Assembly: GCF_018861145.1 (NCBI RefSeq) | Contig: NZ_JAHKQT010000001.1 | Coordinates: 1-36,969, forward strand | Reading direction: 5' to 3' | DNA length: 36,969 nt | Source: Poseidonibacter lekithochrous | Lineage (GTDB): Bacteria > Campylobacterota > Campylobacteria > Campylobacterales > Arcobacteraceae | Part shown: positions 27,427-36,920 of the stretch, piece after piece | How positions within the stretch are numbered: position 1 is the first letter of the stretch | Layout: each line of letters starts with the position of its first letter | Program-made: the position numbers and the translations under genes | Notes under the pieces: model-generated | The model's database searches: none | What the model was told of the DNA's origin: nothing | The model's input: only the letters and a program-made list of their open reading frames with translations

Positions 27427-28248
27427 ATGCAAATTACTGAAAAATTTATAGCCCTTATATCACATGACAATACACTAAATAAAGCACAAGCTAAAATATT
27501 AGAGCTACCCTTCCCTCCAAATGAAAACTGGAAGGAAGAAGTTTTAAATAAAGAAATTTTAAAAAATGATGCAAATAGACTTATGCTTTTAAGAGGTAAG
27601 TTAGCTATTAAAGCACAAGAACAAATCTTAAAAAATTATCTTACTGTTTTAGAGTTTAATAATATAAAATCAAAAGATGTAGAGAAAAAAACTAAAACAG
27701 AAACTTCATATTCTACTGAGAATACAAATGACGATGAAGAACATATAAGAATTTATTGTGATGGAGCATGTTCTGGAAATCCTGGACTTGCGGGAAGTGG
27801 TTTAGCAATATACTCAAACAACAAAAATCCGGTACTTCTACATGGAGATTTTGTAGAAATGGGTACAAATAATATTGCAGAGTTAAATGCACTTTATCAA
27901 GCTTTACTTATCGCAAAACAAACTAGCTCTGAAAATATCATCACTATTTTTTCTGATTCAAAATATAGTATTGATTGTATTACAACATGGGCTTATGGAT
28001 GGAAAGCTAAAGGCTGGACTAAAAAAGGTGGAGAGATTAAAAATCTTGAACTTATTAAGAAAACACATGAATTATATGAAAGAATAAAAGACTTAATAGA
28101 AATAAAACATGTAAAAGGTCATGCAGGAATTGAAGGAAATGAATTAGCAGATAGAATGGCAGTAACTGCTATAAAAGAAAAAACTAAAAACTATGAGATG
28201 TATTCATACGATAAAATAGAAGAAGTACTAAATTTAACTTCATACTAA
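27427..28248 (+). CDS. rnhA: Ribonuclease HI with an N-terminal extension
   Basis: A 273-residue protein. The C-terminal 165 residues are RNase HI, which cuts RNA in RNA-DNA hybrids: YCDGACSGNPG with D112, NIAELNALYQAL with E152, IFSDSKYSIDC with D177, and VKGHAGIEGNELADRMA with H232 and D242, so all catalytic residues are present. The GWKAKGWTKKGG basic handle is also there. The first 105 residues (helical, ending in an acidic/polar linker TENTNDDEEH) lack the usual eukaryote-like hybrid-binding domain motifs and I do not recognise them. The gene has its own promoter and a terminator hairpin. Confidence 0.93.
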   Translation: MQITEKFIALISHDNTLNKAQAKILELPFPPNENWKEEVLNKEILKNDANRLMLLRGKLAIKAQEQILKNYLTVLEFNNIKSKDVEKKTKTETSYSTENTNDDEEHIRIYCDGACSGNPGLAGSGLAIYSNNKNPVLLHGDFVEMGTNNIAELNALYQALLIAKQTSSENIITIFSDSKYSIDCITTWAYGWKAKGWTKKGGEIKNLELIKKTHELYERIKDLIEIKHVKGHAGIEGNELADRMAVTAIKEKTKNYEMYSYDKIEEVLNLTSY

Positions 28249-30063: not shown

Positions 30064-33000
30064 ATGAAAACATTACTTCTTATTATTATCTTATCTATAT
30101 ATATGTATTCTGAAGAGACTATAAAAATAGTTTATAATTCACAAACTCCTCCTTTAAAGTTTACTAATACTAAAAATCAAGCCAATGGATTAATTATCGA
30201 TATTTGGAGACTATGGGCAAAAAAAAACAATATCCAAGTTGAGTTTATTGACGCACCTTGGGATCAAACAATTGAGATGATTAAAACAGGCAAAGCAGAT
30301 ATTAATGCAAGTATTTTCTATACAGAAAATCGTGATAAATATTTAGATTTTGCAGATAAACCTTTATTTAATAACAAAAAATACTTTTTTTATCATAATA
30401 GTCTAGGAGATATTGCACATATTAGTGATTTAAAACCTTATGTTATTGCTATTGATAATGGCTATCCTAATATTTTTATGAAAGAAAATTATCCAGATTA
30501 TTCTATAAATTCATATGAAAGTTCGAATGAGGCAAATCGTACATTTTTAAATGGTGAAGCAAAAGTGGTATTATCTTCACTTACTACATTTTACTATAAT
30601 TTAAGAAGAAATAAATCAGATGAAAATCAATATAAATACAGCCAAATAACTTATGCTTATGAAAAACAGTATTTTGGAGCAGTTAAACAAGGAAATAAAA
30701 AACTACTAGAAAAAATTAATAATGGGTTTAAAAAGATTAGTGATGAAGAATTAAAACTAATTGAGCTAAAGTGGACAAAAGAACTAGACTTAGTAAATTT
30801 TAATATGAATGAAAATACTGCAATATATAATAAAGATACATTTCTTCAAGAGAGAAAAGAAATCAATATGTGTGTAGATCCTAATTGGTTTCCACTTGAA
30901 GAGATTGATAATGGCAAGCATGTAGGTATGATTGCAGATATCTATGAAGAGTTTGAAAAAGAATTAGGCATTAAAATTAAACTCATTCCAACAAATACTT
31001 GGACTCAATCTTTAGAATATCTAAAGCAAAGAAAATGTGATATTTTAAGTGCTGCTGCACAAACAAATGAACGAAAAGAGTATATGAATTTTACGAAACC
31101 ATATTTAACTTTTCCTGAAGTAATGATTACAAGAGATAAAGAACCTTTTGTTTCAGATTTTAAAGATATCATTCATAAAAAAATTGGAGTAGTTAAAAAC
31201 TCTGCTATAGTAGAATTACTTAAAATAAAATATCCTAAAATAAATTTAGTTGAAACTGTAGATGTTACTGATGGCTTATTTAAAGTTAGTAGTGGTGAGT
31301 TGTATGGCTTTATTAATACAACTACAGCAGTTAGTTACGCTATTGCTAAAAATGGTATGACTCATCTTAAAGTTGCTTCAAGAGTAGGTATTGATTATTA
31401 TTTAAGAGTTGGTATAAGAAATGATGCACCAAAACTTTTAGATACATTTAATCATATTATTACCAATAGAGATAAAACAAAAATAAAACAAATAAAAGAA
31501 AAATGGTTAACAATAAAATTTGATGAGAATGTCGATTATTCTCTTATTTATAAGATACTAGTATTCTTTATATTTATACTTTTATTATTTATATATTGGA
31601 ATAGAAAATTACAATATGAAATTCATGAAAGAAAAATAGCTCAAGAAGAACTCCACAAGTTTTCACAAATTATTGAACAAAGTCATGTTTCAATAATGCT
31701 AACAAGTAGAAGAGGAATTATTGAATATGTTAATCCTTATTATACTAAAGAAACAGGATATACTTATAAAGAAAGCATTGGTAAGAATCCAAGAATATTA
31801 AATTCTGGATATCAAGATAAATCATTTTATGATAATTTATGGGAAACTATTTTTTCAGGTAGAACATGGAATGGAGAATTTTGTAATAAAAAGAAAAATG
31901 GTGAAATATTTTGGGAAAGTGCAATTATTGCTCCAATCTTTGATGATAAAAAAGAAATAAAATACTTTGCTTCAATTAAAGAAAATATAACAGAAAAAGT
32001 ACAAACATTAAAAAAATTAGAAATAGCTCAAAAAGAAGCTATTAAAGCGAATCAAACAAAATCTGATTTTTTAGCAAAAATGAGTCATGAAATAAGAACT
32101 CCAATGAATGCAGTTTTAGGAATGTTATATTTATTAGAAAAATCCACATTAAACCTAACACAAGAAAATTATATTAAAAAAGCAAATAGTGCTGCAACTT
32201 CTCTTTTAGGAGTAATTAACGATATTCTTGATTTTTCAAAAATTGAAGCAAATAAATTAGAAATAAAAAATTCTGAGTTTAATATCCACGATTTAATAAA
32301 TGACACAATGAGTATTATGAGTGTAAAAGCCCAAGAACATGAATTAGAACTTTTAACATATTATGATAGTGATGTTCCAATGATTGTTATAAGTGATAAA
32401 TTAAGAGTTTCTCAAATATTAAATAATCTTATTTCAAATGCCATTAAATTTACGAAAAAAGGTGAAATATTAATTTCGGCAAGCTTATTAAATCAATCAA
32501 AAAAAGCTGCCACTTTAATGTTCTGTGTTAAAGATAGTGGTATGGGTATCTCAAAAGAAAATCAGAAAAAACTTTTTCAAGAGTTTTCACAAGTAGATGA
32601 TTCTGCAACAAGAAGTTTTCATGGAACAGGTTTAGGTCTTGCTATTTCTAAAAAACTATCCTCTTTATTAGGAGGAAAGATTTGGATTGAAAATAGTAAA
32701 GAAGATGCCGGAACAACTATTTGTTTTACGATACAAGTTAAAACAAAAACAAGTAAGAAAAATAAGAACCTTGTTTTACCAAAAGAAATGAACCATTTGA
32801 ATGTATTAGTAGTTGATGATAATATCTTAGCTTCAAAAGTTTTAAGAAAGATGCTTGAATCTTTTCATTGCAATGTTGAACATGTATACAGTGGATTTGA
32901 AGCAATACAAGAGGTGCAAAGAAAAAACTTTGATATGATTTTCTTAGATTATAAAATGCCTGGGTTAAATGGAATAGAAACATATAAAAAATACAAAGAA

Positions 33001-34206
33001 ATCCTTAAAGAAAATACACCTAAAACTTTAATGGTAACAGCATACTCACAAGAAATTTTAGAAAAAGAAATAGAAAAACACGGAATTATTGGATATTTAA
33101 CAAAACCGATTTCTCCGTCATCTTTATTTGACTCAATAATAAACTCTCTTAATAATACAATAATTACTAAAGAAGAATATGTACAAGAAGAATATGAAAC
33201 GCTTAAAGGTATAAATATATTATTAGCTGAAGATAATAAAATAAACCAAGAGTTTGCTGTTACCTTACTTGAATCAAATGGAATAAATGTACAGATTGCA
33301 AATAATGGTCTTGAAGTATTAGAACAAATCAAAAGTAAAAAATTTAAGCTTATACTTATGGATATTCAAATGCCTAAAATGGATGGATTAGAAGCTACAA
33401 AATGTATACGAAAACTAAAAGATACTTACTTTAAAGAAATACCAATTATTGCACTTAGTGCAAATGCTTTAGTTGGTGATAAAGAAAAAAGCATTGAAGC
33501 AGGAATGAACGATCATATTACAAAACCAATAAATCCTAAAATACTTTTTGATACTTTAAAAATATTTATTGATGAAATTAAACCAATAGAAAAAGTTCAC
33601 AATATAAAATATCAAAACTATAAGCTTGATGCAGAACTATTTGATGTAGAAGAAGCAATAAATAGAATGGGTAATAATGAAAAAGCCTATTTAAAAATAC
33701 TAAATCAATTTTGTCTAAAGTATCAAGATGTATTTGAAGATATTTATAAACTTATTAATAAAAAAGATATTAATAGCTTAGAACGTAAGATTCATGAATT
33801 AAAAGGTATTGCAGGGAATATTGCAGCAAAAAGATTATTTAATGACTTAAGTGGATTAGATACAATACTAATTAATAATAAAATGCCATCAGATAAAATG
33901 TTTACACAGTGTCAAAAAAGTCTTGAAGATGTGATTAAAAATATAAATGATTTAAATACAAACACAAGTATTACAAAAAAAGAATTTGATAAAAAAATAG
34001 TGGTTGAACTATTATTAAAAATAGATACTTATATTAATAAAGATATCGTTTTATGTGAGAAATATATAGATAAGCTTACTCCTTATTTAGAAGGTTCTTA
34101 CAAAGATTTTTCTTTACAACTAACAACTTCTTTTGATGATTTTGATAGTGAAAAAGTAAATGAACTTATAAAAAACTTTTTAAAGGATATTCGTAATAAT
34201 GAATAA
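30064..34206 (+). CDS. BvgS/EvgS-like hybrid histidine kinase with two periplasmic solute-binding domains
   Basis: A 1380-residue unorthodox sensor kinase. In order: signal/anchor sequence (1-17); two SBP_bac_3-type domains (about 20-240 and 264-484, each opening with an IKIVYN or INMCVDPNWFPLE strand and ending in KWTK or KWLT); TM (494-511); PAS (about 525-640, with a PAC end EIKYFASIKENITE); HisKA with H675 in MSHEIRTPMN; HATPase with NNLISNAIKF, DSGMGI and GTGLGLAIS; receiver 1 (D962); receiver 2 (D1100 in LMDIQMP); and an HPt domain with H1244 in HELKGIAGN. All four phosphotransfer residues are intact. The likely scheme is amino-acid-like or other small-ligand sensing and a His-Asp-His relay to a response regulator. 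The end overlaps the next gene by eight bases, which offers two receivers as targets. Confidence 0.95.
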   Translation: MKTLLLIIILSIYMYSEETIKIVYNSQTPPLKFTNTKNQANGLIIDIWRLWAKKNNIQVEFIDAPWDQTIEMIKTGKADINASIFYTENRDKYLDFADKPLFNNKKYFFYHNSLGDIAHISDLKPYVIAIDNGYPNIFMKENYPDYSINSYESSNEANRTFLNGEAKVVLSSLTTFYYNLRRNKSDENQYKYSQITYAYEKQYFGAVKQGNKKLLEKINNGFKKISDEELKLIELKWTKELDLVNFNMNENTAIYNKDTFLQERKEINMCVDPNWFPLEEIDNGKHVGMIADIYEEFEKELGIKIKLIPTNTWTQSLEYLKQRKCDILSAAAQTNERKEYMNFTKPYLTFPEVMITRDKEPFVSDFKDIIHKKIGVVKNSAIVELLKIKYPKINLVETVDVTDGLFKVSSGELYGFINTTTAVSYAIAKNGMTHLKVASRVGIDYYLRVGIRNDAPKLLDTFNHIITNRDKTKIKQIKEKWLTIKFDENVDYSLIYKILVFFIFILLLFIYWNRKLQYEIHERKIAQEELHKFSQIIEQSHVSIMLTSRRGIIEYVNPYYTKETGYTYKESIGKNPRILNSGYQDKSFYDNLWETIFSGRTWNGEFCNKKKNGEIFWESAIIAPIFDDKKEIKYFASIKENITEKVQTLKKLEIAQKEAIKANQTKSDFLAKMSHEIRTPMNAVLGMLYLLEKSTLNLTQENYIKKANSAATSLLGVINDILDFSKIEANKLEIKNSEFNIHDLINDTMSIMSVKAQEHELELLTYYDSDVPMIVISDKLRVSQILNNLISNAIKFTKKGEILISASLLNQSKKAATLMFCVKDSGMGISKENQKKLFQEFSQVDDSATRSFHGTGLGLAISKKLSSLLGGKIWIENSKEDAGTTICFTIQVKTKTSKKNKNLVLPKEMNHLNVLVVDDNILASKVLRKMLESFHCNVEHVYSGFEAIQEVQRKNFDMIFLDYKMPGLNGIETYKKYKEILKENTPKTLMVTAYSQEILEKEIEKHGIIGYLTKPISPSSLFDSIINSLNNTIITKEEYVQEEYETLKGINILLAEDNKINQEFAVTLLESNGINVQIANNGLEVLEQIKSKKFKLILMDIQMPKMDGLEATKCIRKLKDTYFKEIPIIALSANALVGDKEKSIEAGMNDHITKPINPKILFDTLKIFIDEIKPIEKVHNIKYQNYKLDAELFDVEEAINRMGNNEKAYLKILNQFCLKYQDVFEDIYKLINKKDINSLERKIHELKGIAGNIAAKRLFNDLSGLDTILINNKMPSDKMFTQCQKSLEDVIKNINDLNTNTSITKKEFDKKIVVELLLKIDTYINKDIVLCEKYIDKLTPYLEGSYKDFSLQLTTSFDDFDSEKVNELIKNFLKDIRNNE

Positions 34207-35704
34207 AAAATTAAATATATTAATTGTGGATGATGTCCCAGCAAATATTCACACTTTAATGTCTATTTTAAAAGATGACTATACAATAACAGCAGCGACA
34301 AGTGGTGAAAAAACATTACAATTATTACAAACTTCAACACCAGATTTAATACTTTTAGATATACTAATGCCAAATATGAATGGATATGAAGTTTGTAGGA
34401 AAATTAAAGAAAATGCTAATACTTCAAATATTCCTATAATTTTTGTAACTTCTTTAAATAGTATTGAAGAACAAGAAAAAGGCAGAAAAGCTGGTGGAAT
34501 AGATTTTATTACTAAACCATTTTCTAAAGAACTTGTTTTAAATAAAGTAAATACATACTTGAAGATAAATACATTAGAGAAGGGAAGAATAATGAATAAT
34601 TCAAAACAATCAATATTAATTGTAGATGACTCTCCTGAAAATATTCACGTAATAATAGAAGTATTAAAAAAAGATTACATAGTCTCAGTAGCAATTAGTG
34701 GTAAAAAAGCACTAAATATGCTAAATGATGGATTAAGACCTGATTTAATATTACTAGATGTAATAATGCCTGAAATGGATGGTTATACCTTATGTGAAAA
34801 AATCAAAGAAATCAAAGAGTATATGCATATACCTATAATTTTTGTTACTGTCTTAGAAAAAGAAAAAGATATTGTTAAAGGATTAGAACTTGGAGCAGTT
34901 GATTATGTAGTTAAACCAATAGAACCCATAGTACTAAAAGCAAGGGTTCAAACTCACTTAAAACTTAAAACTTATCAAGACCAATTAATTCATGACTTAC
35001 AAATAAAAGATGAATTAATATTAAATCAATCAAAACTTGCAATCATTGGTGAAATGTTTGAGACTATTACAGATCAATGGAAACAACCATTAACAACTAT
35101 TAGTGTTGCTACTTCTGGAATAAAATTACAAAAAGAACATAAACAATTAACTGACGAAATTTTAATTAGTACCTTGGATAATATTACAAAGTCTGTAGAA
35201 TATCTTTCAGAATCAGTAAATGATTTTAAAAGTTTCTTAGTTATGGATTCAAAGAAATACAGATTTGATATAAAAGATATTATTGATAAAACATTATTAC
35301 TTTTAAAATCAAAATTTAAAAATAGTTCCATTAATATTATAAATAAAGTAGAAAATATTGAGATAACAAATTTCCAAAATGACTTAATACAAATATTAAT
35401 GAATATCTTAATTAATGCAAAAGAAGCATTTAAAGATACAAATAAGAATAAAGAAATTACTATTGAATCTTCAATCAATAAAGAAAATATCATATTAAGT
35501 ATTACTGATAATGCTGGTGGTATTGAAGAAAATATATTTGATAAAATATTTGACAAACACTTTACAAGCAAATCATATAATGAAGGAAGTGGATTAGGCT
35601 TATATATGAGTAAGAAAATCATAAAAGAGCATTTAAACGGTGAAATAAAAGTATCTAATGTAAAAGATGGTGCATCTTTTAAAATAATATTACCTAAAGA
35701 ATAA
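34199..35704 (+). CDS. Two-receiver, kinase-like protein lacking the phospho-acceptor histidine
   Basis: A 501-residue cytoplasmic protein. Two receivers stand in tandem (1-125 and 137-258; D54 in LLDILMP, D187 in LLDVIMP, with K106 and K239). Their similarity (ILIVDD.P.NIH, PDLILLD, IPIIFVT) suggests duplication. A kinase core follows (about 270-500). Its H-box reads ETITDQWKQPLTTIS, where the three paralogues in this window have GNIAHQWRQPLS, so D292 replaces the phospho-accepting His. The HATPase motifs are intact: NILINAKEA, TDNAGGI and GSGLGLYMS. It overlaps the hybrid kinase gene by eight bases and is its probable relay target. Without the His it cannot autophosphorylate in the usual way. 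It might bind ATP as a switch or act as a phosphatase or scaffold; these are inferences. No DNA-binding domain is present. An internal start at 34592 is possible. Confidence 0.9.
   Translation: MNKKLNILIVDDVPANIHTLMSILKDDYTITAATSGEKTLQLLQTSTPDLILLDILMPNMNGYEVCRKIKENANTSNIPIIFVTSLNSIEEQEKGRKAGGIDFITKPFSKELVLNKVNTYLKINTLEKGRIMNNSKQSILIVDDSPENIHVIIEVLKKDYIVSVAISGKKALNMLNDGLRPDLILLDVIMPEMDGYTLCEKIKEIKEYMHIPIIFVTVLEKEKDIVKGLELGAVDYVVKPIEPIVLKARVQTHLKLKTYQDQLIHDLQIKDELILNQSKLAIIGEMFETITDQWKQPLTTISVATSGIKLQKEHKQLTDEILISTLDNITKSVEYLSESVNDFKSFLVMDSKKYRFDIKDIIDKTLLLLKSKFKNSSINIINKVENIEITNFQNDLIQILMNILINAKEAFKDTNKNKEITIESSINKENIILSITDNAGGIEENIFDKIFDKHFTSKSYNEGSGLGLYMSKKIIKEHLNGEIKVSNVKDGASFKIILPKE
34577..34594 (+). 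promoter_or_regulatory. Internal ribosome site and ATG within the two-receiver gene
   Basis: GAGAAGGGA (34577-34585) stands six bases before an in-frame ATG at 34592, exactly at the linker between receiver 1 and receiver 2. Translation from here would give a 370-residue protein with receiver 2 and the kinase-like core only. Confidence 0.4.
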
Positions 35705-35744: not shown

Positions 35745-36920
35745 TTATAAGTTACTTAACATTAATACATAATCTTTAATATCAATTACTTTTTCATTTT
35801 TAATATATACACGTGGAACTCTTTTATCTACCATACACACAATTTCATAATTGATTGTATTTAAACTCTGAGCAACGCTATCTATTGTAATTCCATTTAT
35901 ATCATTTCCACCAAATAAAACTACTTCATCACCTACTTTAGTATCAAAATTTGTAACATCAATAATACACTGATCCATACATATACTTCCAATAATAGGT
36001 GTTTTAATCCCTCTAATCATAACTTTTGCTTTTCCTGATAACATTCTAGTATATCCATCAGCATAACCAATTGGAAGAGTTGCTATTTGAGATTTTTTAG
36101 CATTTTTATATTTTAAACCATAACTAACACCACAATTAGCATCAAGATCTTTTACTTGAGAAACTTTTGCCTTTAAACACATTACTTCTCTTAGTTTAAC
36201 TGCACTTTTACTTACATGTTCGGAAGGATATAAACCATATAGCATAATACCTGCTCGAACCATATCAAAATTAAACTCGGGCAAGTCTATTATTCCAGCA
36301 CTATTAGATACATGTTTTATAGGAATATTTAATCCTCTTGCTTCTAATTTAGAAACAATATGATTAAACTTTTCTACTTGTTTAAAAGTAAATGTTTTAT
36401 CAATTTCATCAGCAACTGCAAAGTGAGTAAAAATACCTTCAATAAATAAACCATCAAGTTTTGACATATCTAAGATTGATTCAATAGTTTCATCAGAAAA
36501 AACCATACCTAGTCTACTCATTCCCGTATCTAGTTTAATATGTATTTTTACTCTTTTATTTAAGGTAAGTGCTACTTTTGAATACTCTTGCGCTTGTTCT
36601 TTTGTATATATAGTTTGAATAATATTGTTATTTATTATATCAAGTGCAAGTTCATTTGGAGTATAACCTAGTACCATTATCTCAGTATTAGGAAAACCCT
36701 TCCTTAATTGTATTGCTTCACTTAATGTGGCAACTGCAAATCTATCTGCTCCATTTTCAAGTAAAACACTTCCAATACTAAGAGCCCCATGACCATATCC
36801 ATCAGCTTTAATAACAGCTGTTACTTTAGCATTTTTATTAGTAACCCTTCTTACTTCTCTCATATTATGAGCTAAATTATCTAAATTAATTTCAGCCCAA
36901 ACTGGTCTTGATAATTTCAC
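35745..36920 (-). CDS. alr: Alanine racemase
   Basis: A 391-residue PLP enzyme converting L-alanine to D-alanine for peptidoglycan. The cofactor lysine is K38 in VIKADGYGHG and the second catalytic base is Y267 in CGVSYGLKYK. The segments LDTGMSRLGM, HVSNSAGI and the C-terminal GSICMDQCIIDVT (where alanine racemases have GRVCMDQ) are all present. The start is GTG at 36920, supported by AGGAG eight bases upstream. The length is usual for the family. A TATAAT at 36934-36939 lies too close to the ribosome site to be the -10 box of a normal leader, so the promoter is probably further upstream, outside the window. Confidence 0.97.
   Translation of the reverse strand: MKLSRPVWAEINLDNLAHNMREVRRVTNKNAKVTAVIKADGYGHGALSIGSVLLENGADRFAVATLSEAIQLRKGFPNTEIMVLGYTPNELALDIINNNIIQTIYTKEQAQEYSKVALTLNKRVKIHIKLDTGMSRLGMVFSDETIESILDMSKLDGLFIEGIFTHFAVADEIDKTFTFKQVEKFNHIVSKLEARGLNIPIKHVSNSAGIIDLPEFNFDMVRAGIMLYGLYPSEHVSKSAVKLREVMCLKAKVSQVKDLDANCGVSYGLKYKNAKKSQIATLPIGYADGYTRMLSGKAKVMIRGIKTPIIGSICMDQCIIDVTNFDTKVGDEVVLFGGNDINGITIDSVAQSLNTINYEIVCMVDKRVPRVYIKNEKVIDIKDYVLMLSNL

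Follow-up and report, generated by a model that had tools for sequence, protein, structure and literature searches.

The window analysed here, a stretch of 36,969 nucleotides from Poseidonibacter lekithochrous (contig NZ_JAHKQT010000001.1), carries at 34199-35704 on the + strand, like its parts and the hybrid kinase gene described below, an ATG-initiated open reading frame (ORF) for a protein of 501 amino acids (aa). It is composed of two receivers (REC) and a histidine kinase (HK) half, the latter comprising a dimerisation and histidine phosphotransfer (DHp) domain without its phospho-acceptor His and a catalytic and ATP-binding (CA) domain. The protein is probably a Rec-controlled kinase turned pseudokinase. 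Among solved structures LvrB, a Rec-controlled kinase, comes closest to it, and among functional precedents the DivL pseudokinase. It is probably phosphorylated by the BvgS-like hybrid kinase encoded next to it, with regulated binding or dephosphorylation of a partner as output. Acceptor-His loss is recurrent in Rec-controlled kinases, mostly of one bacterial family, the Arcobacteraceae.

Pfam detected two Response_reg domains and one HATPase_c domain in the 501-aa protein, and no HisKA match at E <= 0.001. The first receiver, delimited by the best Response_reg stretch and by alignment, covers aa 7-117 (34217-34549) and includes the phospho-acceptor Asp54. The second, placed by Pfam, signature check and model, covers about aa 137-262 (34607-34984), with the phospho-acceptor Asp187, Thr217 and Lys239. 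Both acceptor Asp and the receiver Lys residues are kept, and the acidic pair, Asp, Thr/Ser and Lys are present as in LvrB-type receivers. In the H-box, GEMFETITDQWKQPLTTIS (TITDQWKQPL), translation and alignment place Asp292 (GAT, 35072-35074) at the position of the phospho-acceptor His, while the three window paralogues starting at 1263, 15267 and 17547 read GNIAHQWRQPLS (NIAHQWRQPLS). With Gln296 (35084-35086) at +4, the sequence DQWKQ forms a DxxxQ. The CA domain, assigned to aa 393-500 (35375-35698) by Pfam and alignment, has intact N (NILINAKEA), G1 (DNAGG) and G2 (GSGLGL) boxes, and no DNA-binding or other output domain is found in the protein. The original prediction, made from the letters of the window, had described this Asp-for-His replacement against His-bearing paralogues, together with intact ATP boxes and receiver aspartates. 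ORF, codon, paralogue H-boxes and alignment bear it out, and they also support its view of a selective acceptor loss with an intact ATP site in a protein devoid of DNA-binding or enzymatic output domains.

An AlphaFold2 model of the 501-aa protein, based on 22 sequences, has a mean pLDDT (predicted local distance difference test) of 84 and a predicted template modelling score (pTM) of 0.48, too low for the relative domain placement to be reliable. It arranges, in order, REC1, REC2, an unbroken helix at aa 243-313 (34925-35137) which joins the last helix of REC2, the signalling helix and DHp helix 1 and bears Asp292, a second DHp helix and the CA domain. LvrB is its best structural match. By Pfam, model and structural match, the layout is therefore that of LvrB, a REC followed by helix, DHp and CA, with the exception of the DHp phospho-acceptor His, replaced by Asp292.

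We followed the H-box in the genomes of our sample (G-numbers designate genomes and L-numbers loci; 104 Arcobacteraceae genomes were scanned). An orthologue of 86% protein identity in a second species (G096) carries Asp at this position, with the same GAT codon. Five more distant orthologues, G035, G036, G061 and G074 (50-58% identity over their length) and a fragment in G072 (48%), carry His, so Asp292 is derived. Consistently, the window and G096 rows form one branch nested among His rows in the tree. In all seven genomes the REC-HK gene follows the hybrid kinase (the G074 and G072 contigs hold a partial hybrid only, and the G072 REC-HK is cut at the contig end). The check on orthologues proposed initially thus returned His in five cases, but the strain mutation or sequencing error that it was meant to reveal does not hold, because two species share the Asp and because two further REC-HK lineages each acquired an Asp of their own. 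An ancestral Asp in this family is likewise ruled out, by the His of the five orthologues and by the failure of the Asp rows to form one clade. A separate scan of genome contigs for close orthologues, which may omit records near the window genome, returned nothing above 40% over the whole protein; its best match, at 40%, is a His-bearing protein of a Sulfurimonas metagenome-assembled genome (MAG; L156). Between the two Asp species, protein identity is 86-90% in this region versus 95-98% for most neighbours, with the alanine racemase behaving likewise. Synonymous divergence resembles that of the neighbours, so an imported divergent block is not supported as the explanation for this lower identity.

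Asp at the H-box is rare. Over the 104 Arcobacteraceae genomes, the pattern CAYCARTGGMRNCARCC occurred 2941 times with His and 3 times with Asp, and the three Asp matches were all in frame and all in REC-HK proteins. For codons not starting with C, a second pattern, in which Gln at +4 was not required and a preceding Glu-Met was, gave 23 matches, five of them in-frame H-boxes, three with Asp (the window gene, its orthologue in G096, and G086) and two with Tyr (kinases of G097 and G076). Leu, Pro and Arg codons at the H-box position gave five pattern matches and no true H-box, and Gln codons no pattern match at all. Extension to 397 genomes of the phylum yielded six Asp-pattern matches, among which the only true H-box besides those of the window and G086 was that of G413. 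All four Asp proteins (window, G096, G086 and G413) are REC-HK proteins. The two Tyr kinases, which are not of the REC-HK type, lie at L151:1923-4586 (G097, IAYQWRSPL) and L065 (G076:C187, LTYQWRQPL); Tyr is the DivL residue.

We then considered the REC-HK class as a whole. The census profile was built from four His-less sequences and extra loci were added; a match was left out if it covered REC alone or fewer than about 300 of the 380 positions, with L327 and L047, which the contig end truncates, retained as exceptions. Among the resulting 128 rows (126 from Arcobacteraceae, one from the Sulfurimonas MAG, and G413 from another family), 105 have the His and 23 do not, with Leu (10), Asp (4), Glu (4), Arg (2), Asn (2) or Ile (1) in its place. 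For Arcobacteraceae alone, His is missing in 22 of the 126 REC-HK proteins. A 65-row tree requires at least five changes to a non-His state and three to Asp. A single clade of window, G096 and G086 is rejected (approximately unbiased test, p-AU 1.2e-7); G086, G076 and G413 sit on long branches and their exact placement is unsure. Independently of the Asp-specific scan, the events within the family are two to Asp, one to Leu (G076) and one old event at a locus described below (locus A), of ambiguous first state, besides the two Tyr kinases outside the REC-HK class. G413, the third Asp event, was picked up by an Asp-directed scan, and a preference for Asp over other replacements is only suggestive. 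Recurrence of His loss in the class was not part of the original prediction, nor was a separate 18-genome family that has lost its ATP boxes too.

A hybrid kinase gene precedes many of the His-less genes, either immediately or with one REC gene in between: the window gene, those of G096 and G086, the Leu case of G076 and all locus A members whose upstream DNA was fetched. However, at least seven His forms share this position (G035, G036, G061, G074, G072, G080 and G083; 20 of about 75 further His REC-HKs were sampled), and the G413 gene does not adjoin a hybrid kinase. Adjacency alone is therefore no predictor of His loss. At L268 and L333 (G044:C3), a His-bearing REC-HK is fused with a hybrid kinase in one open frame.

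The largest His-less group, 18 of the 23 proteins, occupies locus A. Where read, the gene order there is a hybrid kinase with two solute-binding protein (SBP) domains, a separate REC, the REC-HK and then, mostly, a methionine sulfoxide reductase-like gene (Pfam-confirmed in G083 only, and absent from the stretch read in G055). At this locus G080 and G083 have an intact REC-HK that retains both the His and the ATP boxes. The remaining 18 genomes have lost the His, and the 17 of them whose sequence is full-length lack the N and G2 boxes as well; Pfam recognises only the receiver in the two members examined, G004 and G067. Nevertheless, one degenerate member is still modelled as a REC, a long helix, a DHp hairpin and a CA domain (mean pLDDT 78), and its PDB matches are histidine kinases, LvrB first and DivL at rank 45. 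The HPt (histidine phosphotransfer) His is missing at the aligned place in five of five hybrids, those of locus A in G083, G004, G060 and G092 and that of G086; phosphate would there need a direct source, the hybrid's kinase or its receiver. A link of this relay to methionine oxidation is possible. The loci concerned are L144 (G083), L136, L137, L139, L141-L143, L152 and others, with the pseudokinase spread over three genera and the intact kinase confined to one.

To what extent are these proteins constrained? By simple pairwise estimates, the gene as a whole has a dN/dS of 0.16 between the two Asp species; its HK half gives 0.19-0.21, with 0.14 in DHp helix 1 and 0.22 in CA. The HK half gave 0.08-0.19 in six fully degenerate locus A pairs and 0.07-0.14 in three His pairs. 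The tested HK halves remain under purifying selection, and these values argue against pseudogenes. On the input side, the receiver Asp, Thr/Ser and Lys are retained in 23 of 23 His-less rows, the acidic pair being DD in 22 and ND in G413. Heptad spacing of the linker is stated to be a hallmark of Rec-controlled kinases in the source cited (PMC13269768). In the 23 His-less rows, receiver Lys and acceptor position lie 53, 60 or 67 residues apart, distances that are all 4 mod 7, a class which includes 87 of 105 His rows and 110 of all 128. At 53, the window protein has the heptad-spaced REC-DHp signalling helix of the LvrB type. With receivers and linker spacing kept and the His lost, input and transmission appear to be retained while the kinase step is lost.

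The input is probably provided by the adjacent hybrid kinase (30064-34206, 1380 aa), in whose 3′ end the 501-aa ORF starts, with an 8-base overlap. It contains two SBP_bac_3 (Venus flytrap) domains, PAS, HisKA (His675), HATPase_c, two receivers and an HPt (His1244). The HPt scores 22.3 in Pfam, below the cut-off of 24.6, and its HELKG-type motif at His1244 is kept in seven of seven orthologous hybrids, which supports the hybrid as the plausible phosphate source initially suggested. Tandem SBP_bac_3, HK, receiver and HPt give it a BvgS/EvgS-type architecture. The DNA-binding regulators BvgA and EvgA are paired with BvgS and EvgS, respectively. The window hybrid differs in having two receivers and, beside it, a REC-REC-HK protein rather than a DNA-binding response regulator. 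At L236:4933-5991 (G067:C1), the gene after a distant relative of this hybrid (SBP, PAS, HK, two RECs, HPt) encodes a REC-HD_5 protein, which is another output on the same kind of relay in place of REC-REC-HK.

Gene order and conserved residues suggest that the BvgS-like hybrid would sense a periplasmic ligand and pass phosphate, via its receivers and HPt His1244, to Asp54 and/or Asp187 of the window protein. As fold and heptad spacing would predict, REC2 phosphorylation may then act down the continuous signalling helix on the DHp-CA half, as in LvrB. With Asp at residue 292 this half cannot form phospho-His, a matter of established chemistry, so the output would be the conformational state of an ATP-binding, non-phosphorylating HK core: the switch would only change shape. 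Such a core could bind, and most likely dephosphorylate, a response regulator, or hold back the regulator of another kinase. The non-canonical role initially proposed stands as far as a non-kinase role is meant.

The closest parallel to this scheme is LvrB of the Leptospira LvrAB pair, Rec-controlled histidine kinases also termed hybrid response regulators. LvrB is reported to be phosphorylated by LvrA, encoded next door (PMC5863495); once its REC is phosphorylated, a coiled coil is described to form and to release the CA domain, and the unphosphorylated symmetric state of LvrB is proposed there as the phosphatase-active form (PMC13269768). The two systems share the REC-signalling helix-DHp-CA arrangement and the gene beside a hybrid kinase that would phosphorylate the REC, LvrB is the top structural match of both models (window protein and degenerate locus A member), and the same logic may apply to the window pair, with a BvgS-like sensor. 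In contrast, LvrB has an acceptor, His161, and autophosphorylates, where the window protein has Asp and two receivers, and LvrA is cytosolic whereas the window hybrid has two SBP domains and an HPt.

Which output is favoured depends largely on the DxxxQ. In HisKA_3 proteins, the Asp of this motif is the residue right after the His. The window Asp292-QWK-Gln296 spells the motif of CheZ and HisKA_3 (NarX) on a DHp helix that would face the receiver, judging by the protein sequence and its predicted helix, with the register shifted by one from HisKA_3, Asp standing at the His position itself. The +4 residue of HisKA kinases is described as needed exclusively for phosphatase activity (N375 of CrdS, for H371), with the H-box His helping this activity without being strictly required (PMC3510030). 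We would accordingly rank a phosphatase first and binding only second, mainly for Gln296 at +4 and the DxxxQ that it makes with Asp292. Gln at +4 is ordinary in this kinase family and only the Asp is new, so that Gln296 on its own is no independent support for a phosphatase.

A binding-only scaffold, in which the DHp-CA core would recognise a partner or a phosphorylated regulator with no catalysis, is possible though unlikely for the window protein. DivL (Tyr550) is an established case in the cited account: its acceptor His is replaced, HK fold and conservation are kept and it works with receivers (PMC4211667). The window protein similarly combines a replaced His with an intact gene, conserved in two species only. 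But DivL has PAS sensors ahead of the HK core rather than two fused receivers, most of its homologues share its Tyr, and its ATP binding is weak, whereas the window Asp is recent and its ATP boxes, as motifs, are intact. The locus A family, still conserved and folded with neither N nor G2 box and with a variable +4 position, fits binding-only better. The window protein differs from DivL and that family in this, as do all three Asp lineages: their N, G1 and G2 boxes are still readable. At the other extreme, the His-to-Asp change in HQW[RK]Q-box Rec-controlled kinases could be a gain of function, HxxxQ becoming DxxxQ, that would yield a dedicated ATP-dependent and receiver-gated phosphatase. It would have arisen at least three times (window lineage, G086 and G413), the ATP site being kept each time. 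We regard this stronger proposal as rather improbable.

Several observations weigh against a phosphorylated, partner-regulating pseudokinase. The HK half of the gene, at 0.19-0.21, lies slightly above the HK of the hybrid itself (0.13) in dN/dS, and the Asp292 form was found in only two species of the sample, so that relaxed constraint in that lineage is possible. DivL is described in its source as a pseudo-histidine kinase without kinase or phosphatase activity (PMC4211667), and the CrdS H371A mutant as having partially lost its phosphatase activity (PMC3510030). Lastly, we found no partner regulator of the 501-aa protein, and the HMGL-like aldolase and alanine racemase that flank the module give no functional clue.

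Three other explanations seem to us still weaker. In a heterodimer with a paralogue that has kept its His, the intact CA domain might phosphorylate that His, the ATP boxes being intact and the genome offering 46 matches to the canonical H-box pattern; evidence for a co-conserved partner is lacking, however, and the phosphate-relay input would be redundant, which makes such a heterodimer doubtful. Equally doubtful is the pure phosphate sink or relay buffer of the original prediction, which would leave all function to the two receivers and make the HK half a relic. Receivers are indeed conserved in all 23 His-less proteins, and the locus A HK half is less identical than the REC in six of six pairs; the sink is disfavoured by the purifying selection on the HK half in every tested pair and by the ATP boxes kept in the Asp forms. 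Early decay, with the Asp as a lesion in a kinase being lost, would suit its restriction to two close species and a dN/dS above that of most neighbours, but has little chance of being correct given that the frame is intact in both species, that dN/dS stays far below 1 and that His was lost to Asp independently on two other occasions, each with the frame open and the ATP boxes kept.

Rec-controlled histidine kinases are common and their structure has been understood only recently. If their HK half is repeatedly stripped of its kinase chemistry with receiver input kept, the last step of a phosphorelay can be a phosphate-switched protein that binds or dephosphorylates a partner, in addition to DNA binding, enzymes or another kinase. 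The repeated His loss suggests that relays can indeed end in a phosphate-switched non-kinase protein. The Arcobacteraceae provide a natural series, from His plus ATP site through Asp plus ATP site to neither, which makes the role of an HK fold without His directly testable. The open-licence literature on His-less or pseudo-histidine kinases features DivL, RocA, ChrS and RcsCDB. In that literature, including hybrid response regulators, we found no report of a REC-HK without its His, which is no proof of absence, and no paper on pseudokinases in Arcobacter.

Two neighbouring genes may also be mentioned. The alanine racemase gene (35745-36920) has a dN/dS of 0.19 between the two Asp species, as high as for the 501-aa protein and above the values for four other neighbours (0.05-0.10). 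An RNase HI-like protein of 273 residues is encoded at 27427-28248, and its RNase H match starts at residue 105.

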